This document shows positions 18,216-64,000 of a DNA stretch of 64,000 nt, piece by piece. The notes below the pieces were generated by a model. It was not told the DNA's origin. It searched no databases and saw nothing but the letters and a program-made list of their open reading frames with translations. This DNA is from Chitinophagales bacterium (GTDB taxonomy: Bacteria; Bacteroidota; Bacteroidia; Chitinophagales; CAIOSU01), in assembly GCA_040877935.1 (NCBI GenBank), contig JBBDNB010000012.1, positions 62,001-126,000 on the forward strand, written 5' to 3'. The translations under genes were made by a program, and so were the position numbers. Positions within the stretch are counted from its first letter, which is position 1; each line of letters opens with the position of its first letter.

Positions 18216-20104
18216 GCTTTTATATTGTATTTATTAATTGCCTCCAGCAAAGTAATTACCAGCGATTTCTCTAAGGTATTTCCTTTTTCGAATAAGAAGT
18301 GCATATCCTTGTTCAGGTTTTTGTCAATGACCAGATCAATTAGAGTCTCAAAACGGGTTTTGTAAAGGTCTCGTATATTTTTGTTTTTCCTATACCAATA
18401 TTCATAGGGGTTCATACTGGTTTTTTGCAATTGCCCGGTTTTGTTATGATAAATCTGTTTAATTTTATTGCGGTATCTGCTCAATTCATTTTTCCATTGC
18501 GCATTGGGTTTAAAACCTGTTTTTTCCCATTTGTACTGCGCAATTTCAGGTCTGTATTTTTCGATCCACTTAAAATAGAGCTTGCTGTTTTGTTTTAGAT
18601 GGATATCAATAGACAAGCAGGCCTCAATAAAATCGGTATTGAGGAAAGGAGAACAAAGATAGCTCTGGTTATTTTCGCAAATTAATGATCCTGATACAGT
18701 TATGTTGAATAATCTATTGTGGAATTTAAAAACTTCTTCCGAAGCGTAATCATCAGTTTTTATAAAATCAATTTTGTGGATCAGCTTTTTTGAAGTAGCT
18801 GTGGAAAAGTAATCGGGGTTATCGGGATTTTTAGAAATAAAACCTCCCATCACAGCACCGCCAATTTGCCCGGTATGGATAAGTCCAAAATCATTCAGTT
18901 TGAGTTTTTTCAGTGCGAAATTAAAATGTGCTGCTGCCAGGTAAAATATCGAAGCATTGTAACAGGATAGATTTTCTTCAATATGCTCCATATATATGGC
19001 TTCATCAAGCGGAATAAAAGTGTAGGTATTGCCCAGGTCAGCACTTATTTTTCTTGAGATTTGCTCATCTGCATAGCCCGATTGCGAAAAACAAAAATTG
19101 TGTGTTGAAAGCCCCATTTTTGCAGCAGCCATTACATTCATCCTGGAGTCCAGTCCACCGCTCAGGGTTGCAATATGCTTGTAGCCATACTCAATATCCT
19201 TTTGATATTCCATTTCAATGGCATTGCTGAAATGTGCTTCAAGCAGCTCAATGGCTTTTTCTTCACTGTAAATTTTTGATTTAATATTATTGAAACTGTG
19301 ATAATTTTCCACACTTAATTTATCTCCGGAGACTTGCAGCAATTGTCCTGCACAAAGCTTATGGATACCGGAAATCAGTGTCTGGCTTTTGTATGTACCG
19401 CCAAAAGTGAGCATGGCATAAGCAGCATTAAAATTAAGTTGGTTAGCACCATCTATTTCGCTTTTCAGGTCACTGATAATTTTCAAATCTGGACTGATTA
19501 TGGTAGAATTTCCGGCTTTGCAGTACAGTGCCTTTTTTGTGCCAGCCTGGTTGGTGAAAAACAAGAGCTCATGGCTGTCTTTGTCAAAAATAAAACCACA
19601 AAATTCCCCGCTGAACTGATTGATGAAATTTTTGCCAAATTGATTGTGCAGATGGAGTATCAGCTTGAAATTATCTGAAAGCGCATATGTTTTTCTAAGT
19701 TGCCGAAGATTTAAAATAACCCCGTCCATTCCGACAATAAACTGCTCATTTTCCCCAAAACACTTGTCTTTATTAAATTTTGAATGAGGATTATAATAGA
19801 AGGAATACCGACTTTGAGATTGACTTGAAATAAATTCGATCTTTTGCATTTCCGCAAATTCAATGTCTTCGGTATTGTTGTATATAATAGTAAATCCGTA
19901 CAAAATAAACTGCTTGTCAAATGAAGGGAATTGGCAAAATAAATTGAGCAACAATCCTTGCTTGAATAATTGTCTTTGTTGTAAAAGTAGCCATGTTTTT
20001 CGGGAAATAGAATCTTGTTTTTTGCTAAATCCCTGAACAATAAAAACCTCTGTCACTAACAAATTAAAGCAACTACTACAGCTTTTAAAATACTCCATCG
20101 ACAT
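18212..20104 (-). CDS. Asparagine-synthetase-like amidotransferase (probable glycan-cluster enzyme)
   Basis: 630 residues. The C-terminal half is an asparagine synthetase domain, with the PP-loop ATLSGGLDSRMNVMAAAK near residue 315. The N-terminal half resembles a class II glutamine amidotransferase fold (FSGEFCGFIFDKDSHELLFFTNQAGTKKALYC). It lacks the usual Met-Cys start that provides the nucleophile; the ORF instead begins MSMEYFKSCSSC and has about 60 extra residues. So it probably activates a carboxyl group but cannot draw ammonia from glutamine in the standard way. Such paralogues occur in surface-sugar clusters. Overlap with the flippase supports this. The true start could be further inside. 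Confidence 0.75.
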   Translation of the reverse strand: MSMEYFKSCSSCFNLLVTEVFIVQGFSKKQDSISRKTWLLLQQRQLFKQGLLLNLFCQFPSFDKQFILYGFTIIYNNTEDIEFAEMQKIEFISSQSQSRYSFYYNPHSKFNKDKCFGENEQFIVGMDGVILNLRQLRKTYALSDNFKLILHLHNQFGKNFINQFSGEFCGFIFDKDSHELLFFTNQAGTKKALYCKAGNSTIISPDLKIISDLKSEIDGANQLNFNAAYAMLTFGGTYKSQTLISGIHKLCAGQLLQVSGDKLSVENYHSFNNIKSKIYSEEKAIELLEAHFSNAIEMEYQKDIEYGYKHIATLSGGLDSRMNVMAAAKMGLSTHNFCFSQSGYADEQISRKISADLGNTYTFIPLDEAIYMEHIEENLSCYNASIFYLAAAHFNFALKKLKLNDFGLIHTGQIGGAVMGGFISKNPDNPDYFSTATSKKLIHKIDFIKTDDYASEEVFKFHNRLFNITVSGSLICENNQSYLCSPFLNTDFIEACLSIDIHLKQNSKLYFKWIEKYRPEIAQYKWEKTGFKPNAQWKNELSRYRNKIKQIYHNKTGQLQKTSMNPYEYWYRKNKNIRDLYKTRFETLIDLVIDKNLNKDMHFLFEKGNTLEKSLVITLLEAINKYNIKA

Positions 20105-33174: not shown

Positions 33175-33254
33175 AATGACGGTTTCAATTTAACCTCAAT
33201 GCTGCTCTTTCTGTTTTCGAATCCAAAGCAATATTGTTATGAAAACGCAAACCC

Positions 33255-33402
33255 GCGTGAGGGATGGAAGCGGTATCCTTTTGGGGCGGGGCATTAGTGT
33301 TGCGGGCTTTGGGAAAGCGACCAGCGGAAGCTCATACTAAAGTCCATTTGCAACACTTTGCCATCGCACCAAAAGATAGAGCGGACAGCCCGGTAAACAC
33401 GC
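33255..33402 (+). ncRNA. Possible structured RNA or folded repeat element
   Basis: GCGTG (33255-33259) pairs with CACGC (33398-33402). Inside it, ATCCTTTTGGGGC (33275-33287) pairs with GCACCAAAAGAT (33366-33377) with one mismatch and one bulge. Between the stems the strands read GGAAGCGG and AGAGCGGACAGC, an unpaired pair of GCGG boxes. No promoter or terminator was found, so it could equally be a DNA repeat. Confidence 0.4.
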
Positions 33403-40503: not shown

Positions 40504-42213
40504 ATGAAGTCGATTATTAGTTCCTGTAATAGATTGCCTGATTATGCCTATTTAATATTTTTCATACTATTATCTGCAATTGTATTTCTACCAAGTATTC
40601 CTTCAGGTTTTGTATTTGATTTTATTGGTTGGGCATGGCTTTATCAACAGGGTACTTTCCTTGATGCTTTGAACAGCTTTGAATACAAAGGCATACATCC
40701 GGTGCTACATGCTTTTTCCTATTCTTTTTTTAAGCTGTTTGGTTTTGATGGATTTGCTTGGTATTTGGTGACATCAGTTCTGCATGGATTGAATGCTTTT
40801 GTACTGTTCAAATTTTTAAAGTATCTGCTTTTTAATTTTGAAATAACTACTCCTGTATTTTTGGCAGCTGTAATTTCAGTTCTGTTTATACTTCATCCCT
40901 ATAATGTTGAGCCGGTAGTTTGGAAAGCATGCCTTCACTATTTGCTCTCATTCTTTACGATTGTATTGAGCTTATATCTTATATCGGTAAATGTTGTTGA
41001 AAACTCCACAAAACATTATTGGATTGGTATTTTGCTTTTTGCTACTGCTTTGTTCACCCTGGAAATTTCCTTTATTACTCCATTGCTTTGGTTTTTAACT
41101 GCTGCTTTGATCAATACAAGATTATCTTCAGAAAATAAAAAGTCATTTCTAAGCTTGGGAATTAGAATGTTGTTGATTCCCGCCTTCTTTTTTGTAGGGT
41201 ATCTATCATTGACCTATCTCAAATTGGGTAGTGCAATAGGCCATTATGGCGCAGATAAGCATCTTAATTTCGATTTTTATAAAATTCTCCTGAATGCCTA
41301 CAGCTACTTTGTAAAACACCTGCTTTTTGCCAGGAATTTTAATTTTTATAACAAACCGGCTTATGAGTTGCTCAGTCAGCCTTTTGTCTTGCTTGTAATT
41401 ACCGGTTTTTTGATTTTTCTGCTTCTTGCTGCTTTATACTATTTTAAGAAAATTCCTCGCAATATTTTACTCTCACTGCATTTTGCAGTTTTGTTTTTTG
41501 TGAGTTTGTTGCCGGTTTTGAATTTGTTTTTTTATCACTTATTGTTGTCCGAAAATGACAGGTACGGCTATCTTGCTTCTCCTTTTATAATAGCTTCATT
41601 TGTACTTCTTTTCATTAATATTCGCAGCTATTTAAAATGGATACCTGTTTTGCTTTACTTTATGCTAAGTGTTTACTTTTTTAGCATAACTATAGATGCA
41701 TGGCACAAGTCGGGAATTATAACCCGTGCTTTAGTTAATGATTTTTCTTTTTATGATAAAGAAGAAATAATTTTCCTGAATACCCCTGATAATTATATGG
41801 GGGCAATTATATTGAGAGCTGTAAACTCTGATCAATCAATGTTTAATCTTTCATTGGAAACCATGAGAGGAAAGAAATTTGAAGGAAAAATATGGGAAGT
41901 TGCGCAATACAGTATGGTCGATAGTGAAAACAAATTCGCAATTCAAAGTGACAGCAGCAATCATCTGAGTATTACATTTAGCAAATGGGGTTCCTGGTGG
42001 ATGAAAAATGCCCATGGTGCTGTGTCGTATGAAACTGAAAGGTATAAAATGGTACTGAATGACGTAGTATCCTATGATTTGTATATTAAAGGCGAGCTGA
42101 ATGAAAATACAGCAGTACTTTATCACGATGGAAATAAATGGAAGGAGCTAAGTATAGATTCAATAAAATCAAACAAAGCGGTAAAACTCAATAATTATAA
42201 GGGTGTTTATTAG
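40504..42213 (+). CDS. Multi-span membrane protein, GT-C glycosyltransferase-like
   Basis: 569 residues with about ten hydrophobic segments up to residue 400 and a soluble C-terminal domain of about 150 residues. The first extracytoplasmic loop (WAWLYQQGTFLDALNSFEYKGIHPVLH) resembles the GT-C fold of TMTC/PMT-like transferases, but I did not find a clear catalytic aspartate pair. It is divergent from the GT2 gene at 40377 (126 bases between starts), which could make the donor lipid. Function inferred. Confidence 0.65.
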   Translation: MKSIISSCNRLPDYAYLIFFILLSAIVFLPSIPSGFVFDFIGWAWLYQQGTFLDALNSFEYKGIHPVLHAFSYSFFKLFGFDGFAWYLVTSVLHGLNAFVLFKFLKYLLFNFEITTPVFLAAVISVLFILHPYNVEPVVWKACLHYLLSFFTIVLSLYLISVNVVENSTKHYWIGILLFATALFTLEISFITPLLWFLTAALINTRLSSENKKSFLSLGIRMLLIPAFFFVGYLSLTYLKLGSAIGHYGADKHLNFDFYKILLNAYSYFVKHLLFARNFNFYNKPAYELLSQPFVLLVITGFLIFLLLAALYYFKKIPRNILLSLHFAVLFFVSLLPVLNLFFYHLLLSENDRYGYLASPFIIASFVLLFINIRSYLKWIPVLLYFMLSVYFFSITIDAWHKSGIITRALVNDFSFYDKEEIIFLNTPDNYMGAIILRAVNSDQSMFNLSLETMRGKKFEGKIWEVAQYSMVDSENKFAIQSDSSNHLSITFSKWGSWWMKNAHGAVSYETERYKMVLNDVVSYDLYIKGELNENTAVLYHDGNKWKELSIDSIKSNKAVKLNNYKGVY

Positions 42214-42360: not shown

Positions 42361-45300
42361 TTATCTCAGAAGCGTCACATTTCCTTTTTTTAATACTTCC
42401 TGTCCGTTGGAGCATACGCCCTCCATTACATAGACAAATACGTCTGAACTCAACATACGTCCTTTGTAAAAGCCATCCCAACCGTGATTGACATCTTTAC
42501 TTTCAAATACCATATTGCCCCAGCGATCAAATATCCTGAAATAATTCAGATGGGATACGCCAAATCCTCTTACATAAAGCACGTCATTGATTTCGTCTTT
42601 ATTGGGCGAAAAAGTATTGGGAATATAGAAATTGTCACCACAATCCCCGGCAGATTTTACCAATACTGTATCATAGGCCACACAGCCCTCAGTATCGGTA
42701 AATTTCAATGTAAATTCCTGCTCGTCCTGATCAACGTACCATTCCGGGTTTTCACAATTGGTACAGTTTAGGGCTTCATAAGGCCCCCACTCATAATTTC
42801 TTGCAAAATGACTGCTCACTACGTTAAGGGTGATTGTTCCGCCATTAACAGAGCGTTCAGGATCCTCAATTTTAAGATCAGGGATTTGGTTTACTTTGAT
42901 ATTTACCTTTTGTGTGTCAGCAATACAAGCGCCACTTTCAATAATTCTGGTGTAGCTAATACTGCGCTCTGGTTTACTCTGAACAGAGTGCTCTGAAATA
43001 TTGCTCAGGTAGTTAAGTGGTGACCAGCTTACAGTTGAACCCAGATAGCTTTCAGCAGAAATATTAGTATTGAACTGCACAACATTGCCGGCACATATAC
43101 TTGTGTCATTCAATGGACTGGCAATCACTTTTTCTATTACTTCCAGGTTAACAGTGTCGGAATTTTGACAGTCATATTGATTGTATGCAGTTACGATCAA
43201 TTGAATATCATCTTCAGGATTTGCTGTTGGGCTCAGTATATTGTCTGCCGATAATACTTTTGGCTGTGTCCACTCAAAAACAACACCTGTATTTGAAACA
43301 GAGCTTAATGTAATTTCATCACCGAGGCACAGTTTTGTGTCCTCAATTGTTTGAATATCTGGCAAAGGACGAACAGTTATTGTAATACTGTCTTGTGCAG
43401 TACATCCAAATTCACTTTCAACTTCAACAACATATTCTATATCATTGATGGCTGTAAAGCTCGGGTCATCACAATTTGTGCAGTTTAATCCTGAAGTATT
43501 TTCAAGCCAGGTGTAATTCACTCCTCCACTTGCCTGCAGGTTTACGGTTTCATTCAGGCAAGCATCAGAAGGGCCAACAATGTGAGTTACCGGAAGCGGG
43601 TTTACAAATACTTTTACACTATCAGAAATTGTACAGGCAAATTGGTTGCTCATTTCAACTACATATGTTGCAGAATCTTCGGGAGTGGCAACTGGATTTT
43701 CGCAATTAGTACAAGACAGGCTGTTATTGCCATTAGCAATCCAGTTATAGCTGTTGCCCCCCTGTGTATTTAGCACTACTGAAGCACCTTCACATATTGT
43801 GGTGTCGTTTTGTACAATTCCATCGGGATTTGGATTTACTGTTACAGATACGGAATCTGTACTAACACATCCTGCAGAATTACTTACTTCTACATAATAC
43901 ACAGTGCTTTCTATAGCTCTTATAATATTAGTGTCACAGCTCGGACAATTGCCATTGGGAGTCCAGTTGTAAAAATCACCGCCACTTGCCCAGATTTCAG
44001 CAATTTCCCCATAGCATAGTACTGTATCTGAACTTGTATTTGTCTGTGGTGGATAATTCACTTGAATATTTACAGAGTCTGTATTGCTGCAACCTTTTTT
44101 GTCTGTAACAGTTAAAACATAATTTGTAGTAGAATCCGGTTGTGCAATAGGATTGGCTATATTTGAATTGCTTAGACCAGCTGCAGGTGTCCAATTATAG
44201 GTAATTCCCCCTTGGCCGTTAAGTTGAGTTTGCTCATAAGAACAGATACTTGAATCTTGTCCTGCATTGGCAATAGGTAACTCGTTGATGGTTATTGCAT
44301 TGGAAACAGTATCTCTACAACCACTCACTGATGTTACAATCAATTGAACATCGTAAGTTCCGGAATCTGGATACTGTGTCACTGTATTTTGAGTACTGTC
44401 AGTTAGTCCATTGCCAAAATCCCAGCTCCATTTGGCAAGTGTACTGTCAGATTGGGTAAGGTCTGTAAATGTGATGTCTGCGGAAATACATTTTAATCCT
44501 GCATTACTGAATTCTGCCTGTGGCCCACGATCAACACGAATAAAAGCCTCTTTTCTCATGGTATCAGAACAGTAGTCATTTGAAACAATCAGCTCTACTG
44601 TATAAATTCCTGGGCTATTATAATGATGTAAAGGATTTTGAGCTGTAGAAGTATTGCCGTCACCAAAATCCCAGTGTCGGTTTGTAATATTAGGGAATCC
44701 GGTTGAAAGGTCTCCGAATTGAATGCTTCCTGATTTACACAGATAATTGCTGTCTGCAATAAAATCTGCCTGAATATCCCCAACCATTAATGTGTCGCTA
44801 CTGCTAATTGTAAATAAGCATCCCTGCCCGTCATCCAATACCAGTACGGGGTTGTAGATTCCGGAATTGGGATAAGTATGAGTAGCTGTATCTCCTCCGG
44901 TAAAAAGCGTACCATCACCAAAATCCCAGGTATTCTCCACAGAATTGATTGTCTGTGCCGTAAATTCTATTTCATTGCCCAGGCAGCCATCTTTAGGGGT
45001 AAAACTAAAAGTGCCATTAGGACCGTTGACTATTACCAGGTCTTCTTTTTTCAAAGTGTCTTTACAACCTACTATATTTGTTACAATCAATTCTACAGAG
45101 AAACTCCCCGGTTGATTGTAAACATTTGAAGGCTCGTTGATCTGACTTTTACTGCCATCACCAAAATCCCAATCCCATGCTGTAATATTGCCTTTGGAGC
45201 TGTCCGTGAAATGCACCAATAATGGCGGACAAGGTGAGAAAAGCGAATCGGCATAAAAATCAGCAACCGGATCTGAAACAGTTACATAATCCGTTTTTAC

Positions 45301-48072
45301 TAAGGTGGAATCACAACCGAATTGATCGGTTACAGTTAAAGTAATGGTGTAAGTACCTTCAAATTCGTATTCATGCTCAGGGTTTTGAATAGTATCTGTA
45401 TTTCCATCGCCAAACTCCCAGTAATAGCTCAAGCCATTTCCTTCGGAAGAATCAGTGAAACTAACGGCTTTACCTGTACAGGTCAATTCATCTGCACTAA
45501 AATTGGCTATGGGCAATGAAGGTTTGATCAATTGGGATTTAACAATGGTATCGGTACAACCATTCACGTCTTCTATCATAAGCGTAACATCCTGTATCAG
45601 ACTGTTTTTATAGACATGTGAAGGGTTTTGCACCTGGCTGGAATCTCCATCGCCAAAGTACCATTTGAATTGATTCACGGCACCGCCAAATCCCACGGAT
45701 GAATCTATAAATACCACATTCAATGGAGCACATCCTGTTGTAGGTGTAGCACCAAAATTAGCTAAAGGGCCTCTCACGAAAATGAAATCTTCTTTCAACA
45801 GTGTATCGGCACAACCATTCACATCTTCCGAAATCAGACTGATATCGTAATATCCAGGCTCGTGGAATGTAAACGCAGGATCAACTAAACTAGAAGTCCG
45901 TGTTCCCTGTTCTATCTGCCATTTATATTTATCTCCATCTACAGAAAGATTTTTTAACTGAACTAAATAGGGATTACAAACCAGCGTATCTGCACTGGTA
46001 AAATCTGCTTTGGTATCGTATATGCGAATATTTTCCACAGCAATGTCCATACAACCATAAACTGAGTCTGTTACAGTAAGAGATACGGAATAAACACCGG
46101 TTGAATCAAAGCGGTGAGTTGGGTTCCTGTCAGTAGAGGTATTTCCATCGCCAAAATCCCATTCCCAGGTTTGTGCAGCAAGTGATGCATCTGTAAATGA
46201 AATTTCATAAGTATCGGCACAAGTTCTGTCGAAAGTAAATCCTGCACCGGGAGGATGGATGGTTACAATATTTTGATAAGCCTGTGTATCGGCACAACCA
46301 TACATAGAAGCAATTAATACCACTGAAAATGTACCGGTATCACTATACACATAAGATGGGTTTTGTTCACTTGAATGACCTTCATCACCAAACTCCCAGT
46401 ACCAATCATTGGAATTGGGTGTGGTGAGATTGGTGAAATTTATAGGATCACTTTTACAACTGACAGTAGGAGAGTAGGCAAAATCTGCATCCGGTTTTTC
46501 ACCGGCAGATGCAAACTGTGTCATAAGCAAAGTATCGCGACAGCCCCTGGCATTTCTCACAATCAGGCTTACATCATAAATGCCCTGTGCTGTATAGGTG
46601 TGGGCTGGATTGGGTTGGGTTGAAGTATTTCCATCCCCAAAATCCCAGATATATTGATTGATGGGTTCTGTAGAAATACTTTGATCAGTAAAATTGCTTG
46701 TCATAGGAACACACCCGCTGGTTTGGTCTGCAATAAAACTCGCTTCAGGACTTTCCACACTAACATAATCTTCCAGAATTAAAGTATCACGACAACCATT
46801 GAGACTTCCAACGCTCAGTGTGATATCGTACTGGCCTTCGGTAGTATAAGTGTGAGAGGGGTTTTGATCAGTTGATGTAGTCCCATCCCCAAAATACCAT
46901 TCCCAGGAATTGGCATTTACCGACAAATCGTTAAAATTAACGGTGTGCGGAGCTGTGCAAGCACTTGGGTTATTGGCAGAAAAATCTGCAGTAGGTGCAT
47001 TGGTCACATTAATATAGCCTGTTTTTTCTGTTATATCCCAACAAGTAGCAGAGTTACTTGCAGTGAGTTTTACATTGTAAGTACCGGGTGTTTGGTACGC
47101 ATGAACAGGGTTTTCATCTGTTGAAGTATTTCCATCTCCAAACTCCCAAAGCCATGTGTCGGGATTTGAAGAAGAAAGATCCGTAAACTGAATTGCTTTT
47201 CCAGCACAGGCAAATGTGCTGCTTGCAGAAAAGTCTGCTTGCAATTGCTCAATTGCGATATATCCGGGAATGCTAAGTACATCTGAGCAACCAGATGAGT
47301 TTGTTGCGGTGAATGTAACATCATAAACTCCTGAATTGGTATAAGTATGTGAAGGGTTTGCTTGATTTGAAGTATTGCCATCCCCAAAATCCCAGAAGTA
47401 TGTAATTGCATTGGTAGCCTGCTGTGTAAAATTTACAGTAAGCGGTTCCTGACAGCTCGACTGAACATCAGAAGTGAAATCTGCTTCAGGCAGTGCTTCT
47501 ACTTCTATAAATTGAGAAAAAACCGAGTCGCTTTTACAGCCATCCTGGTTTTCAGCTACAAGTGTGACATTATATATTCCTGCATTTTGATAGACATAAG
47601 TAGGGTTTTGCTGAGTGCTCGTGCCTCCATCTCCAAAATTCCATGTCCATTTATGCAATGGAGAAGAACCGGGATTACTTTCATCTGTAAAATCAACACT
47701 AAGTGGAGTGCAGCCTTTAATTTGACTGGCACTGATATTAATTTCAGGATCTTCAAAAACTTCTATGAAGTCATTCATTACAATGACATCTGTATTCACT
47801 CCATCAGATACAGTAAGCTCTACTGTATATTTTCCGGGGGTAATATAAATTTTTCCCGGATTTTGACTGCTTGATGTACTTCCATTACCGAATTTCCAGT
47901 TCCAGGAACTAATGTTTCCTGTGGATTGATCTGAAAAACGAACGACCACCGGACTACACCCGCTGGTAATATTTGCTGTAAAATTTGCTGTAACTTGTGC
48001 GTGAGCGGAAAATGAACCAAAGACGAGCACTGAGGCCAGTATCTGAATCATTCTTACAAATCGAATTGTCAT
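42361..48072 (-). CDS. Giant PKD-repeat adhesin with T9SS type B sorting domain
   Basis: 1,903 residues from ATG 48072; the frame is open to 48159, but the ATG fits the signal peptide (MIQILASVLVFGSFSAHAQ). I count about 15 PKD modules marked by W-x-W/F-x-FGDG-x-(T/S) (for example WDFGDGNTSTQPNP), then about seven Ig-like modules with C-x-N/G...C patterns and YxW centres. The final 90 residues (FYIPNTFSPNKDEINDVL, FRIFDRWGNMVFES, WDGFYKG) form a gliding-motility-associated, type B T9SS sorting domain. It would be exported and displayed at the cell surface as an adhesin. The 15-base AACAACCAAACTATA flanks the gene in inverted orientation. Confidence 0.93.
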   Translation of the reverse strand: MTIRFVRMIQILASVLVFGSFSAHAQVTANFTANITSGCSPVVVRFSDQSTGNISSWNWKFGNGSTSSSQNPGKIYITPGKYTVELTVSDGVNTDVIVMNDFIEVFEDPEINISASQIKGCTPLSVDFTDESNPGSSPLHKWTWNFGDGGTSTQQNPTYVYQNAGIYNVTLVAENQDGCKSDSVFSQFIEVEALPEADFTSDVQSSCQEPLTVNFTQQATNAITYFWDFGDGNTSNQANPSHTYTNSGVYDVTFTATNSSGCSDVLSIPGYIAIEQLQADFSASSTFACAGKAIQFTDLSSSNPDTWLWEFGDGNTSTDENPVHAYQTPGTYNVKLTASNSATCWDITEKTGYINVTNAPTADFSANNPSACTAPHTVNFNDLSVNANSWEWYFGDGTTSTDQNPSHTYTTEGQYDITLSVGSLNGCRDTLILEDYVSVESPEASFIADQTSGCVPMTSNFTDQSISTEPINQYIWDFGDGNTSTQPNPAHTYTAQGIYDVSLIVRNARGCRDTLLMTQFASAGEKPDADFAYSPTVSCKSDPINFTNLTTPNSNDWYWEFGDEGHSSEQNPSYVYSDTGTFSVVLIASMYGCADTQAYQNIVTIHPPGAGFTFDRTCADTYEISFTDASLAAQTWEWDFGDGNTSTDRNPTHRFDSTGVYSVSLTVTDSVYGCMDIAVENIRIYDTKADFTSADTLVCNPYLVQLKNLSVDGDKYKWQIEQGTRTSSLVDPAFTFHEPGYYDISLISEDVNGCADTLLKEDFIFVRGPLANFGATPTTGCAPLNVVFIDSSVGFGGAVNQFKWYFGDGDSSQVQNPSHVYKNSLIQDVTLMIEDVNGCTDTIVKSQLIKPSLPIANFSADELTCTGKAVSFTDSSEGNGLSYYWEFGDGNTDTIQNPEHEYEFEGTYTITLTVTDQFGCDSTLVKTDYVTVSDPVADFYADSLFSPCPPLLVHFTDSSKGNITAWDWDFGDGSKSQINEPSNVYNQPGSFSVELIVTNIVGCKDTLKKEDLVIVNGPNGTFSFTPKDGCLGNEIEFTAQTINSVENTWDFGDGTLFTGGDTATHTYPNSGIYNPVLVLDDGQGCLFTISSSDTLMVGDIQADFIADSNYLCKSGSIQFGDLSTGFPNITNRHWDFGDGNTSTAQNPLHHYNSPGIYTVELIVSNDYCSDTMRKEAFIRVDRGPQAEFSNAGLKCISADITFTDLTQSDSTLAKWSWDFGNGLTDSTQNTVTQYPDSGTYDVQLIVTSVSGCRDTVSNAITINELPIANAGQDSSICSYEQTQLNGQGGITYNWTPAAGLSNSNIANPIAQPDSTTNYVLTVTDKKGCSNTDSVNIQVNYPPQTNTSSDTVLCYGEIAEIWASGGDFYNWTPNGNCPSCDTNIIRAIESTVYYVEVSNSAGCVSTDSVSVTVNPNPDGIVQNDTTICEGASVVLNTQGGNSYNWIANGNNSLSCTNCENPVATPEDSATYVVEMSNQFACTISDSVKVFVNPLPVTHIVGPSDACLNETVNLQASGGVNYTWLENTSGLNCTNCDDPSFTAINDIEYVVEVESEFGCTAQDSITITVRPLPDIQTIEDTKLCLGDEITLSSVSNTGVVFEWTQPKVLSADNILSPTANPEDDIQLIVTAYNQYDCQNSDTVNLEVIEKVIASPLNDTSICAGNVVQFNTNISAESYLGSTVSWSPLNYLSNISEHSVQSKPERSISYTRIIESGACIADTQKVNIKVNQIPDLKIEDPERSVNGGTITLNVVSSHFARNYEWGPYEALNCTNCENPEWYVDQDEQEFTLKFTDTEGCVAYDTVLVKSAGDCGDNFYIPNTFSPNKDEINDVLYVRGFGVSHLNYFRIFDRWGNMVFESKDVNHGWDGFYKGRMLSSDVFVYVMEGVCSNGQEVLKKGNVTLLR

Positions 48073-48431
48073 GATAATATGTTTGGTTGAGAGAATTATA
48101 GTTTGGTTGTTCACTTTGTACGGGAGGGCAATTAAAAAGTTGTGGTAATCCGAAAACAAATGCAGTAGGATGTTCTATTAGCAGATTTACATTAAAAAGC
48201 CTTTGAACCCGGAATATGCCTGTATTTTTATTTCTGATTAATTCTTTCAATCCTGGAAGAAGTTTTTTGATTTGTGACTGTGGATAAATGAGCGACTTAA
48301 ATCAGGCATTTTTATCTAAATGTGTAAAAACAAAGATTAAAGGTTGGTATCCTTATAAATAATGTGAATAAACACCTGTTTTATGTGGAAATAGATGAGG
48401 AAATATTGTGCATTAATTTTGTGTGAAAATA

Positions 48432-48462
48432 TTTGTACATCTGGGCTTTAGGTCTATTTTTG
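48432..48462 (+). promoter_or_regulatory. Promoter of candidate ncRNA copy A
   Basis: TTTG (48432-48435) and TATTTTTG (48455-48462) are separated by 19 bases, an exact fit to the Bacteroidota consensus TTTG-N17-20-TAnnTTTG. Transcription should begin near 48468. Confidence 0.8.
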
Positions 48463-48467
48463 ATAAC

Positions 48468-48817
48468 ATCGAATGAGAGATAAAGGGTAGAGGCGCAAGC
48501 CAAAAGCTTTGATCTTCATCTGAGAAAATGAAAGCCAAAGGATTGAGTATTTCTTCGGAAGGAAAGGTTGAAAAAGTGTAAACTTCAGAAGGTGGATTTT
48601 TCTCGCTTCTGCTTCGGTATGGAGTTACTGAATGAAACGGTGCAAGCCGGGAATTTCGACAGGTGGGATTTAAAGTTTTCCCAAAATATCTATAGCATCA
48701 TGTATGTTGTAGGGCTATGGGAAGCCATAATAACTGTAATTCGACAATGATTTGCACTACGGTGTTAAATTGTTGAAGGCGGGAATTCAAAGTAATTTGA
48801 TTCCCGCCTTTTGTTTT
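48468..48817 (+). ncRNA. Candidate structured non-coding RNA, copy A (about 350 nt)
   Basis: Runs from a consensus promoter to a terminator. The short open frame inside (48568-48750) has no counterpart in the second copy. Folding features: TCGAAT (48469-48474) pairs with ATTCGA (48739-48744) to close the molecule; GGC-GCAA-GCC (48492-48501) is a GNRA hairpin; TTTCTT-CGGA-AGGAAA (48550-48565); TGC-TTCG-GTA (48610-48619) is a UUCG hairpin; CGG-(6)-CCG follows. The copy at 53565-53916 keeps these stems while changing the loops. It does not carry the P4 motifs of RNase P, a tmRNA tag frame or the single long rod of 6S RNA. Function unknown. Confidence 0.7.
48778..48817 (+). terminator. Terminator of candidate ncRNA copy A
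   Basis: GGCGGGAA-TTCAAA pairs with TTTGA-TTCCCGCC and runs into TTTTGTTTTT. Confidence 0.85.
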
Positions 48818-48867
48818 TATACTGTGCCGGAAATAATGACAGCAAATCCTGTAGAAAGAAACCTTTG

Positions 48868-53154: not shown

Positions 53155-53528
53155 ATTTTATTTTGTGAATCGTTCAAAAAAATAACAAGCATCAAAGTTA
53201 ATGTCTTGACAGGACTTCACTGAATTTTTGGAAAATTACTTATTCTTTTTTGTTTTTCGATTAAAGTAGGGTTGTTTCATGAATCGATAAGACATCAAAT
53301 CCCAAAGTTTGTGTGTGCAATTTCCCCATCATAGCAATTATATTTTTTTTGCTGCGATATTTTCTCACTTTACATGTGTGGAAATCTGCGTGTTTTTTTT
53401 CAAAGAATTTTCTTAAATGTGCAAAAACTAATTTAATATGTTGATATCATGTGTTTACCTGTTTATAAAGACATTTTATTTGTGGATTCAACAAGGCAAA
53501 GATTGTGTATTATTTTTTTGGTTGAAAA

Positions 53529-53559
53529 TTTGTTTATCTCAAAATTACTGCTACTTTTG
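53529..53559 (+). promoter_or_regulatory. Promoter of candidate ncRNA copy B
   Basis: TTTG (53529-53532) and TACTTTTG (53552-53559), 19 bases apart, again fit TTTG-N17-20-TAnnTTTG. Spacing and phase equal those of copy A at 48432-48462. Confidence 0.8.
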
Positions 53560-53564
53560 AATAT

Positions 53565-53916
53565 ATCGAATGAGAGATAAAGGGTAGAGGCGAAAGCCAA
53601 AAGCTTTTATTTTCATCTTAAAAAATGCAGGCCAAATGATTGAGTATTTCTTCGGAAAGAAAGATTGAAAATGTGTAAACATCAGAAAGCTGAATTTTTT
53701 TGCTCTTGCGAAAGCACGGAGTTACTGAATGAAACGGTACAAGCCGGGGATTTCGACAGATGGGATTAAAAGTTTTCCCGAAAGACTTATGACATCAAGC
53801 GTGTAATAGGGAATAGGGAAGCCGTAATAACTGTAATTCGACTGCAATTTTCACTACGGTGTTAAATTGCTGAAGGCGGGAATTCAAAGCAATTTGATTC
53901 CCGCCTTTTGTTTTTT
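53565..53916 (+). ncRNA. Candidate structured non-coding RNA, copy B (about 352 nt)
   Basis: Same order of elements as copy A: TCGAAT (53566-53571) with ATTCGA (53836-53841), GGC-GAAA-GCC (53589-53598), TTTCTT-CGGA-AAGAAA (53647-53662), TGC-GAAA-GCA (53707-53716) and CGG-(6)-CCG. Relative to copy A the GNRA loop GCAA becomes GAAA, UUCG becomes GAAA with G-U becoming G-C, and a U-G pair becomes U-A; all keep pairing. No shared reading frame is seen. The remainder of 53155-54008 holds no gene. It ends in a terminator just before the SDR gene on the same strand. Confidence 0.7.
53875..53916 (+). terminator. Terminator of candidate ncRNA copy B
   Basis: GGCGGGAA-TTCAAA pairs with TTTGATTCCCGCC and continues TTTTGTTTTTT; it is almost identical to the copy A terminator. 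Confidence 0.85.
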
Positions 53917-60489: not shown

Positions 60490-63400
60490 TTACTTTAAAC
60501 TCCCCTCCACAACCCCAATCTCCTCCTCACTCAAGCCATACAACTCATAAACCAATTGATCTATTTCTGTTTCCAGTGCGCTGGTGTCGGACTCGGGGTT
60601 TTGTTTTTTGAGGGAAATTATTGCTTCCGCTTTAGCTTGTATGCTTTTGTTATTTGATATTTCTGGATGAACAGGAATCTGTTCCAAATATTGTCTGATG
60701 AATCTCAAATACCCTCCACGTATTGATGAAGTGAGATTGGAATAGAAAAAATGAACCAATCTTGAATTCAGTACAGCCAATAATCCCAAATCATTTACAG
60801 GAATTATATAAGCTGTATTGACACAATATGCTTTAGAGTTGTCAATCATAGCTTGTGCTTTCAAAGCAATGTCAGGAAGCATAATCTTCGGCTTCTCAAA
60901 CTCATCGTAATAATCACAGGCACGCAATTCCCACCAAAAATCACCTTTGTCGTAGCGTGCCTTGGCTTTTGCTTCAAAGGGTTTTAAATGTTTGGCAATG
61001 GCGGGAAAATTATCCTGCAACCAAGACCACGCATCATCATATGGCATATCACCATAGCGGGGTGGCGGCTCACTAACTGCATCTTCAAAGTTGGAGTCAT
61101 CAGGCGGCAAATTCCTTTTTATCGTAAATCCCTTTGGGAAGAATATCAAGTATTTGTTGATTTTTGGCGCAGCATATCTTTTGATGTCCCTACCTGCCAA
61201 AAAAGGCTTTATGACTTTTGCACTGTTCGGGTCTTCTTCTATCAATCTGTTTCTCGTTGCTTCATCAATTACAAAAGCTTCGTTTAGCCCGGTTTTAATA
61301 CCATAGTAAATGTTATCCGAAACATATTCCCTCAAAGGCACGCCTTTTTCCCTAAGCTTTGCGAGTAATTTTTGTACCCGTGCATCTATCAAAGTCCACC
61401 CTGAATCAGGCAGCTCGTTACTGATTACTTCAATGGAATGGGCATCAATAAATGAGGATATTCCTGCCGGAAAATCAAGTGTATCAATATTTGCAGCTTT
61501 AAAGCTGTTTTCCTCGTTTTTTGATTTATCGATTTGAATGATACATGGATAGGTCGTAGCCTCCTCAAATACCGGCAAATCACCAAAATCGATGATTTGA
61601 ACGATGGTGTTTTCCTGTATAAAATTTCTCAATGCTTTTCCATACCCTGCACGCATCCACTTATTGGGAATAATAAAAACAAAATCACCTTGCTTTTTAA
61701 GGATATTTAAACCCAATTCCACAAAGTAAGTATAGAGGTCGGCTGTTCCGGTAAATATCTTAAATCGGCTCTGTAAATAAGCTTTAATTTCTTTAAAAGA
61801 TTCTTGCCGGATATAAGGCGGATTCCCAATTACCAGATCAAAACCCATGAAATCACCTTTTTCATTCAGCACTTCGGGGAATTCAAAGCGCCACTCAAAG
61901 GCATTTTCATAAATCCTGTTGTTTTTGATTTCCTCTATTTCAGCACCTAGTTTTTCAATGTTTTCCTCTAAATTCTTCAGTCTATCTTTCGCTTTTTTCC
62001 GATTTTGCTTGTTGCCATAGGTGGCTTCCTCTTCCTTGAAAATATTGGGAGCTACCAACAGATTGTACTCGTACTGCAATTTTTGCAGCTTTTTCACCTT
62101 TGGGTCATTTTGAGATATTTCACTACGGAAATCACTTTTGATATCATCAATTAGCTTCATCATTTCCCGCTTTTCTGCCTTGTCCGTAGCATTGCGGTAG
62201 GTGTCCACTGCCAGGCGATAACCCTCAATGGTCCATTTGCTTTTTTTCAATGCCTTGCTAAGGTTGGCTTTGATATCAAATCGACTGATCAATGAATTGC
62301 CACATTTTATATTGATATCAATATTGGGAAGGGTTTCCAGCTCGGTCTTGTTTTTATAATAAGCGCATTTCAATAATTCAATCCACAGGCGCAGTCGGCA
62401 GATTTTTACCGAATTGGGATTGATATCTACACCAAAAAGGCAGTTTTCAATGATTGTTTGCTTTTCGTGAAACAATGTTTCCTGAATGCGCTGACTTTCC
62501 TTATTCCCGGGTTTATATTCAAACAATTCACCGTCTTCATCGGTAACAATTAGCTCATCGTTTACTACCTCTACTTCATATTCTTTCAGCCGCCTGCCGT
62601 TTCTGTCTTGCAGTATGTTCAAATCGTTTTTAATGGCTATAATCTCATTGAGTGCAGAAACCAAAAAATGTCCGGAACCTACTGCGGGGTCGCAAATTTT
62701 CAGGTCATTGATGATTTGATTGGCTTCATTGCGGTCATTTATTTTATCGTAGAGTTCATCATGATTTTTGCAATTCCAGCCTTTGGTATCGTTGAATTTC
62801 TGCAATACTGCCTTTCGGATTGCTTCGTGACACATATACATGGTAATGAAACCGGGTGTAAAAAACGAGCCGTCTTTGTATCCATTGATTTTCTCAAAAA
62901 TTAGCCCCAGAACCGAGGCATTGATTAGGCTTTTGTTTTCTTCCTGAATGTCTTCTGCTCCTTCACTGCTAAAATCATAGGCATTGAGAAATTGAAATAG
63001 ATATTCCAGCGTATTGAGTTCTCCACTTCGTTTTTTGCCTTTGCTGTCTTTCAGCACAGTTCCGTTAAAAATCGGAATGGTTTTATCATCCCTTAAATTG
63101 CTGATGAAAAGTGTGTTATGTTCAATATTGGTGGGCTCAAACAAGGAGCTGTTCAAGTATGGCACCATTTCAAAAAGTGATTTTACATCTTCATTCCTTT
63201 CGGCATGTTTGCGCGCCAGCACTTGAAAGAAAAGACTGTTGAGATCATCGAAATTCTGTATTTTTTTGATGCTCAAAAACTCAAAGGAATTGTCACCACT
63301 GTGATAAGTAATCAATTGGGCTTCCATCAGTTTTAGGAAAAGTATGCGGTTGATCCAGGTGATACTGAGCTCAAGGCCCACATTAAAAAGCCGCTCATCG

Positions 63401-64000
63401 TGCGTGATGCCAAATTGAGTAGGTTTTTCCAGCCTGTTTATTTTGTCTAAACTGTCTAATTGGATAATGGTATTTTCCAGCAACGAGCCGGTATTTCTAT
63501 TTCCGACTTTATTCCTTTCAATGAGTTTTTTACCGCCATGTTTCGTTTCAGTAAGCCCAATAATGTGCAGCAATTCCCCGTAAAATCGCTTATCAAGGCT
63601 ATTGCTGTCATTGGTGAAAGGCAGTTTGAGCAAGTGTTCGGGCGAAAGCAGTTTGAAAAGTGCAATCAGTTTATTGTCGTCTTTAGGATTTTCATTGCGC
63701 AAGGGTTTTTCATACTGCCTGATATCAAAGTAGGTAAACTCTATTTCCTGATCGAGTGCAGCAATAAAAGGTGCAGCAATTTCCCTGAAAAAGAAATCAG
63801 TGGTTTTTCCGCTCAGCCGACCTTCGTTAAAATCGATGAATTGTTTGACCAGGCTTTTGTTTTGGGCAAAGATTTTTTCAAAAACACTGGCATCGAAAAT
63901 AAACCACTCGTAAATATTGGTGGCAATTAAGTGTCTGACTTCAAGGTTTTTATGCTCAATGCGTTCGCGTAGATAATACAAAACCAGTTCGTGAAATGCT
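60490..64000 (-). CDS. Type IIG-like restriction-modification enzyme (Eco57I methylase family), N-terminus cut by window edge
   Basis: At least 1,169 residues; the frame is open to the edge, and the first in-window TTG at 63981 is not necessarily the start. The adenine-methylase motifs are present: CDPAVGSGHFLVSALNE (near 62,690) and FDLVIGNPPYIRQE (near 61,820), the NPPY catalytic motif. A helical, coiled insert (KLQKLQYEY...EENIEKLGAEIEEIK) lies between. The C-terminal part (SRLVHFFYSNLTSSIRGGYLRFIRQYLEQIP) resembles a TaqI-like target-recognition domain. A nuclease, if fused, would be at the missing N-terminus. It likely methylates and cuts foreign DNA. Confidence 0.85.
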   Translation of the reverse strand, partial: AFHELVLYYLRERIEHKNLEVRHLIATNIYEWFIFDASVFEKIFAQNKSLVKQFIDFNEGRLSGKTTDFFFREIAAPFIAALDQEIEFTYFDIRQYEKPLRNENPKDDNKLIALFKLLSPEHLLKLPFTNDSNSLDKRFYGELLHIIGLTETKHGGKKLIERNKVGNRNTGSLLENTIIQLDSLDKINRLEKPTQFGITHDERLFNVGLELSITWINRILFLKLMEAQLITYHSGDNSFEFLSIKKIQNFDDLNSLFFQVLARKHAERNEDVKSLFEMVPYLNSSLFEPTNIEHNTLFISNLRDDKTIPIFNGTVLKDSKGKKRSGELNTLEYLFQFLNAYDFSSEGAEDIQEENKSLINASVLGLIFEKINGYKDGSFFTPGFITMYMCHEAIRKAVLQKFNDTKGWNCKNHDELYDKINDRNEANQIINDLKICDPAVGSGHFLVSALNEIIAIKNDLNILQDRNGRRLKEYEVEVVNDELIVTDEDGELFEYKPGNKESQRIQETLFHEKQTIIENCLFGVDINPNSVKICRLRLWIELLKCAYYKNKTELETLPNIDINIKCGNSLISRFDIKANLSKALKKSKWTIEGYRLAVDTYRNATDKAEKREMMKLIDDIKSDFRSEISQNDPKVKKLQKLQYEYNLLVAPNIFKEEEATYGNKQNRKKAKDRLKNLEENIEKLGAEIEEIKNNRIYENAFEWRFEFPEVLNEKGDFMGFDLVIGNPPYIRQESFKEIKAYLQSRFKIFTGTADLYTYFVELGLNILKKQGDFVFIIPNKWMRAGYGKALRNFIQENTIVQIIDFGDLPVFEEATTYPCIIQIDKSKNEENSFKAANIDTLDFPAGISSFIDAHSIEVISNELPDSGWTLIDARVQKLLAKLREKGVPLREYVSDNIYYGIKTGLNEAFVIDEATRNRLIEEDPNSAKVIKPFLAGRDIKRYAAPKINKYLIFFPKGFTIKRNLPPDDSNFEDAVSEPPPRYGDMPYDDAWSWLQDNFPAIAKHLKPFEAKAKARYDKGDFWWELRACDYYDEFEKPKIMLPDIALKAQAMIDNSKAYCVNTAYIIPVNDLGLLAVLNSRLVHFFYSNLTSSIRGGYLRFIRQYLEQIPVHPEISNNKSIQAKAEAIISLKKQNPESDTSALETEIDQLVYELYGLSEEEIGVVEGSLK

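Follow-up and report, generated by a model that had tools for sequence, protein, structure and literature searches.

What is the element that occurs twice within a 64,000-nucleotide stretch of a Chitinophagales bacterium contig (hereafter the window), and does it represent a structured RNA gene kept by selection? An earlier sequence-only reading described the segment at 53529–53916 (copy B) as the second copy of a noncoding RNA. Our comparison bears this out, with copy B aligning without gaps to copy A at 48432–48820 (∼84%; 320/389 aligned bases). The search for more copies in the genome that the reading had proposed recovered a third, copy C, on a separate contig (G000:C43:50922-51307). None of the copies has an open reading frame on the plus strand. 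Folding z-scores relative to shuffled sequences are −4.9 for A, −3.8 for B and −6.0 for C, and in their consensus a CGAAU/AUUCG stem closes a multibranched body, with a UACG-loop hairpin and the terminator following (Table 1). The promoter of the copies, which we take to be of the Bacteroidota −33/−7 type, has the same 19-nt spacing in A and B (TTTG-N19-TAnnTTTG), and the terminator is common to both, as had been noted. The upstream likeness that the reading suspected is also genuine and corresponds to a regulatory region of ∼200 bp. Its proposal of a larger duplicated unit holds only for the RNA plus this upstream region; the genes for tRNA-Arg, a thioesterase, an M16-like protein, a methyltransferase and CorA are simply situated between A and B. 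By one count, A differs from C at 46 positions and from B at 53, so a recent local duplication does not by itself explain the A/B pair. Elsewhere in the window, a terminator-like sequence at 41157–41197, within the open reading frame at 40504–42213, is 76% like the copy B terminator.

Table 1. Coordinates in the window of the features assigned to copies A and B
Feature	Position	Strand	Remarks
Copy A array, four DnaA-box-like sites	48279..48415		Sites at 48279, 48321, 48363 and 48407; 42, 42 and 44 nt apart
Copy A promoter, TTTG-N19-TATTTTTG	48432..48462	+	
Copy A structured RNA including terminator	48470..48820	+	
Copy B array, three sites (≤1 mismatch to TTATNCACA, minus orientation)	53418..53512		Sites at 53418, 53460 and 53504; 42 and 44 nt apart
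Copy B promoter, TTTG-N19-TACTTTTG	53529..53559	+	Architecture shared with 41/48 family copies
Copy B structured RNA	53567..53910	+	Start inferred from promoter spacing; end taken as terminator
Copy B P1 5′ strand CGAAT	53567..53571	+	Followed by conserved GAGAGATAAA
Copy B P1 3′ strand ATTCG	53836..53840	+	Conserved AATAACTGTA just before
Copy B P2 hairpin	53842..53872	+	UACG loop at 53855–53858
Copy B P3 terminator hairpin and T-rich tail	53873..53916	+	

The case for selection on RNA structure had been built on differences between A and B that leave hairpins intact. The individual exchanges were described correctly: GGC-GCAA-GCC in A becomes GGC-GAAA-GCC in B, UGC-UUCG-GUA becomes UGC-GAAA-GCA, and the TTTCTT stem changes from UUUCUUCGGAAG to UUUCUUCGGAAA. 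The pairing evidence behind the argument stands, with 18 of 24 changed A/B pairs still able to pair, and eight pairs are altered on both sides compared with one to three in slid controls. Substitution rates alone give little support. Between A and B the rate is 0.137 in predicted stems versus 0.183 outside them, and between B and C it is 0.174 versus 0.176. The reading had itself named changes at an equal rate outside stems as grounds for refutation; the rates differ little between predicted stems and the rest, and the rate argument alone would fail that test.

A DNA search of 60 relatives, seven family genomes, phage records and plasmids found no convincing relative; the weak matches L010–L012 and L014 and the viral match L016 have no further likeness and were set aside as chance. 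A sequence-only model (R1) matched 31 of 396 genomes of the order at E ≤ 0.01, with one clear relative, L022, which was the only convincing case among the alignments inspected (roughly ten from the rescored set). Modelling the 3′ end instead (R2) picked out 35 of 396 order genomes at a loose threshold of E ≤ 0.02. Four were accepted, namely the genome's own, L022, L055 and L056; 14 of the listed loci were examined closely (two being too short to show), and acceptance covers those only. Model R3 matched 11 of 395 phylum genomes, own included. Among the other ten, four have the 5′ motif with 0–1 mismatch, L328–L330 show the 3′ end only, and L324, L326 and L327 are uncertain as family members. 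The exact 5′ motif is found in 13 of the 395 phylum genomes, about as many as for a reversed control (10), and L220 and L221 are real copies among the 13.

A pattern scan of public genomes, using the shared 5′ motif and part of the −7 element, yielded at least 80 loci, and 43 of 82 motif sites among the matches listed carry the 3′ partner. With five copies added by hand to these 43, the family comprises at least 48 copies with both ends recognizable. We left out 39 of 87 motif sites that lack a 3′ partner under the strict pattern, and several of these (e.g. L138, L139 and L160, which share the 5′ motif) may be real copies that are cut by the locus end or have a variant 3′ end. Sixteen 5′-motif sites on viral contigs were rejected, none having a 3′ partner. 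Most counts below use 46 of the 48 copies after removal of two near-duplicates, and the end-consensus comparison took in 43 of those 46. Carriers among the matches listed are nearly all Bacteroidota (Bacteroidales, Cytophagales/Cyclobacteriaceae, one Flavobacteriales and one Sphingobacteriales bin), plus two bins labelled Chlorobiota, and the distribution across Bacteroidota is patchy. Cecembia, Aquiflexum and Algoriphagus are among the carriers with cultured representatives. The exact 5′ motif, counted as a motif rather than as full copies, occurs two or more times in 10 of 36 carrier genomes. Close copy pairs exist (L150, L165, ∼2 kb apart; L056, L176, ∼660 nt apart by the 3′ model). The 3′-model scan drew on 33 sources, made up of the window, the added copies and 28 or so of the loci from the public-genome scan; some of these are not real loci. 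A conserved-neighbor search found no flanking protein family common beyond a few loci or close clades, which identifies the RNA as a stand-alone gene.

The conserved anatomy is concentrated around the closing stem P1, which is flanked by YGAGRGAUAAA on the 5′ side and AAUAACNGUA on the 3′ side. The RNA begins with CAAGYGAGRGAUAAA directly after the promoter, and its 3′ end reads AAUAACNGUARCUUG, followed by hairpin P2 and an abutting terminator. P1 switches between CGAAU/AUUCG in the window copies and CAAG/CUUG. In L022, CAAGUGAGAGAUAAA and ACUUG stand where the window copies have CGAAUGAGAGAUAAA and AUUCG, a paired replacement that shows the closing stem to covary. The outer pair is C-G, U-A, U-G or G-U in 41 of 46 copies versus 31.8 in shuffles. 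Since the innermost candidate pair at position 5 has no covariation (39/46 versus 42.8 expected from shuffles), we take P1 to consist of four to five pairs. The P2 loop is of the YNCG type in most copies (TACG in 28, CACG in 7 and TTCG in 5 of 43 anchored copies); a YNCG-like loop is absent from 3 of 46. The middle domain is tetraloop-rich and 92–504 nt long, and its hairpins of 4 bp or more with a GNRA or UNCG cap number 111, versus ∼17 in shuffles. Its folding z-scores are mixed (+1.3 to −5.0 in the 16 of 46 copies tested), and in many members it folds little better than shuffled sequence. The middle domains of L153 and L177 (Cyclobacteriaceae/Algoriphagus) are among the longest at ∼500 nt; both repeat a capped hairpin followed by GCAGAA(G) several times, as if module duplication drove growth.

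Selection on structure is far more strongly confirmed by this wider family than by the A/B pair. In the alignment of P2 and the terminator, 27 of 28 pairs have compensatory changes on both sides across 36 distinct 3′ ends, and 92.5% of cells pair compared with 37.6–53.1% when slid. Because a MAFFT alignment (A6) left the stems out of register, covariation was counted on a model-fitted alignment (A7; 37 matches, 36 distinct). This alignment leans towards the structure, which is addressed by the slid controls and by a separate loop-anchored count in which the five apical pairs of P2 score better than all 1000 shuffles.

Is this RNA already known? No Rfam 15 family was found at the gathering threshold for A, B, L022 or the RNA in 19 homologue loci, the searches including one at a loose cut-off (E up to 5). 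The sole Rfam match among the 19 loci is a TPP riboswitch elsewhere in L137. We found no description of such an RNA or of its 5′ motif in the literature, with subscription papers and supplements outside the search; in the portions available of PMC11109978 and PMC8632094, the Bacteroidota and DnaA words sought do not occur. With neither an Rfam match nor a published description, we regard this stand-alone structured RNA of Bacteroidota as a new family, one that is well supported in itself and apparently undescribed. The GOLLD, ROOL and OLE models, presumably among the 4227 Rfam models used, gave no match. From the part of the source available, those are stand-alone, heavily structured bacterial RNAs with many capped helices and largely open function (PMC12286853). 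The new RNA is like them in these structural respects, but is smaller, has another sequence and structure, and carries a DnaA-box-like array upstream. GOLLD, according to the same partial text, is encoded in phages or prophages, often near tRNA islands (PMC12286853), a setting not seen for the new RNA; copy A has one tRNA nearby. Flavo-1 RNA (RF01705) and other stand-alone RNAs of Bacteroidota are likewise intergenic and structured, and they have no similarity to the new RNA at the Rfam thresholds used. A Flavo-1 match just at the gathering score is present in the same window at 33246–33399 (+).

What may control the RNA is suggested by the array upstream. The copy A sites at 48279 and 48363 are exact TTATNCACA, and with its four sites this cluster is denser than any other on one strand in the 64-kb window. 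The copy B cluster (three sites within 130 nt) is the second-densest, tied with one at 18775 whose three sites are chance-like and not evenly spaced. Across the family, the array consensus is gTTATTAACAA-TTGTTaATAACt..TGTtgAtAt.TTGTGnAtAAA (effective n 40), and a TTG-N17-23-TRnnTTTR promoter lies close to P1 in 41 of 48 copies. We counted sites in the 105 bp from −150 to −45 and in equal segments of the same loci. Exact TTATNCACA occurs 0.39 times per copy versus 0.004 in the flanks (about 90-fold). Sites with at most one mismatch number 2.11 per copy; the flanks have 0.10, shuffled sequences 0.22, and the regions preceding 51 other promoter-like sites of the carrier loci 0.29. Two or more such sites precede 78% of RNA copies versus 8% of the other promoter-like sites. 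The exact sites are all in one orientation (18:0), and sites near −63, −74, −86, −96 and −107 fall on a one-turn grid, i.e. are helically phased. The TTATNCACA enrichment upstream satisfies the sequence criterion for a DnaA regulon. The features that define the family are all present: P1 with its flanking YGAGRGAUAAA/AAUAACNGUA, the covarying YNCG-loop P2 with abutting terminator, and the phased array with the TTG-N19-TAnnTTTG promoter.

DnaA is the simplest reader to propose because of the box sequence, orientation and phasing, and it probably reads the array and controls transcription of the RNA; this remains an inference without binding or expression data. No array is present in what is readable upstream of six dnaA loci (one locus begins inside dnaA, and in another the sequence directly before the gene is masked), and GC skew failed to locate the origin in the only complete chromosome. 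Direct evidence for DnaA as the reader is thus lacking. It is possible, if doubtful, that another regulator or a nucleoid protein preferring TGTKNATAA reads them and that the RNA is unrelated to replication. Several array sites resemble TTATTAACA and have an A where the DnaA-box consensus normally has C. The palindrome TTATTAACA/TGTTAATAA departs from a strict box. In the form TTATTAACA-N1-4-TGTTNATAA it is found in 12 of 23 carrier genomes at 13 sites, 12 of them at the RNA promoter, and is thus nearly private to that promoter, as expected for a dedicated regulator; the array missing upstream of dnaA points the same way. Against such a regulator stand the strong, single-orientation excess of exact TTATNCACA and the runs of several exact boxes in some copies (L099 and L325). 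The thirteenth site belongs to a second phased TGTTAATAA array without the RNA, located ∼64 kb from dnaA (L280:1490-1555; G777:C1:2146799), preceding a secreted-protein gene with a SPOR-like open reading frame (by eye); it could be an origin marker, which GC skew did not settle.

We consider it somewhat favored that A, B and C are stand-alone structured RNA genes of ∼345 nt, probably linked to DnaA, which act in trans. The gene, its ends, covarying stems and site array and the lack of a shared neighbor gene are established as far as sequence analysis allows, while DnaA as reader and action in trans are inferred, and data on expression and DnaA binding are lacking. In the proposed mechanism, pairing of the RNA ends in P1 would bring together the YGAGRGAUAAA and AAUAACNGUA strands, which probably form a non-Watson-Crick core. 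The lineage-variable, tetraloop-rich middle domain would sit on this core, with the YNCG-capped hairpin and terminator after it. A strong-looking −33/−7 promoter lies under the helically phased array, and ATP-bound DnaA, or a different protein that recognizes this sequence, would set the RNA level and thereby tie it to replication status. Our best guess is a trans-acting role in which the core of the RNA binds a protein. A more ambitious version, which we put forward as speculative and rather unlikely, is a new RNA class in the replication cycle of many Bacteroidota, where DnaA filaments on the phased array switch the RNA on or off and the RNA, bound to DnaA, to a replication protein or to RNA polymerase, in turn influences replication or the cell cycle.

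Replication control in Bacteroidota has, to our knowledge, been little studied. Conserved in several lineages of the phylum, absent from Rfam and preceded by a control region of unusual conservation, this structured RNA makes a good candidate for a novel function. The array predicts that the RNA level follows DnaA activity and, if this is true, a noncoding RNA gene would be linked to replication control. In the available parts of the sources, ArrA of Bacillus subtilis, which lowers DnaA production (PMC12112137), and EcpR1 of Sinorhizobium (PMC4414408) are RNAs tied to replication or cell-cycle control, as proposed here. The new RNA differs from ArrA, as far as that partial text goes, in being large and structured, with its own gene seemingly under DnaA-box-like sites.

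Other functions fit the RNA less well. It could be a regulatory RNA that base-pairs with mRNAs via exposed conserved strands, and both its own promoter and terminator and the apparently unpaired conserved strands adjoining P1 would suit this role. We find it improbable in view of the very heavy self-structure and covariation and the enclosure of those strands in a closed junction. Slightly less credible still is that the locus acts as DNA, either titrating or reactivating DnaA in the manner of datA/DARS or initiating replication as a secondary origin; the RNA would then take part or serve only for transcription through the site. Such a site would account for the phased boxes and the three copies in the window's genome, but the strongest constraint and covariation fall on the RNA itself, which lies ∼1.1 Mb from dnaA in the complete chromosome. 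6S RNA and 6S-Flavo are RNA genes with paired ends. The new RNA shares the paired ends, along with a similar size range, a strong-looking promoter and single to few copies, and might be a 6S-like regulator of RNA polymerase replacing 6S in these bacteria. This seems very unlikely, as the Rfam 6S and 6S-Flavo models have no match to it and its body is multibranched with several hairpins, instead of one long bulged rod with a central bubble. Dead repeats or a mobile-element remnant, the other outcome that the sequence-only reading said would refute it, could explain several copies, patchy distribution and close pairs in several genomes, and can hardly be upheld when promoter, stems and terminator are kept across families with compensatory changes, no flanking protein is in common, and the genome has no reverse transcriptase over the cut-off (best RVT_1 match 14.2 bits, with stops).

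Two specific element types were also considered and rejected. A retroelement was suggested by L015, an exact 22-nt match on a viral contig beside a reverse transcriptase; the shared ATGAAACGG opens the reading frame of that enzyme, and we put the match down to chance. An RNA of a retron or diversity-generating element was dismissed as the criterion of a cognate reverse transcriptase is not met in the genome. The window also contains two large open reading frames on the minus strand. One, at 42361–48159, encodes 1932 amino acids with many repeats of ∼80 amino acids that look PKD-like by eye, and its C-terminal region resembles gliding or surface proteins; the other, at 60490–63981, encodes 1163 amino acids and is restriction-modification-like, with the methyltransferase motif NPPY (by eye only).
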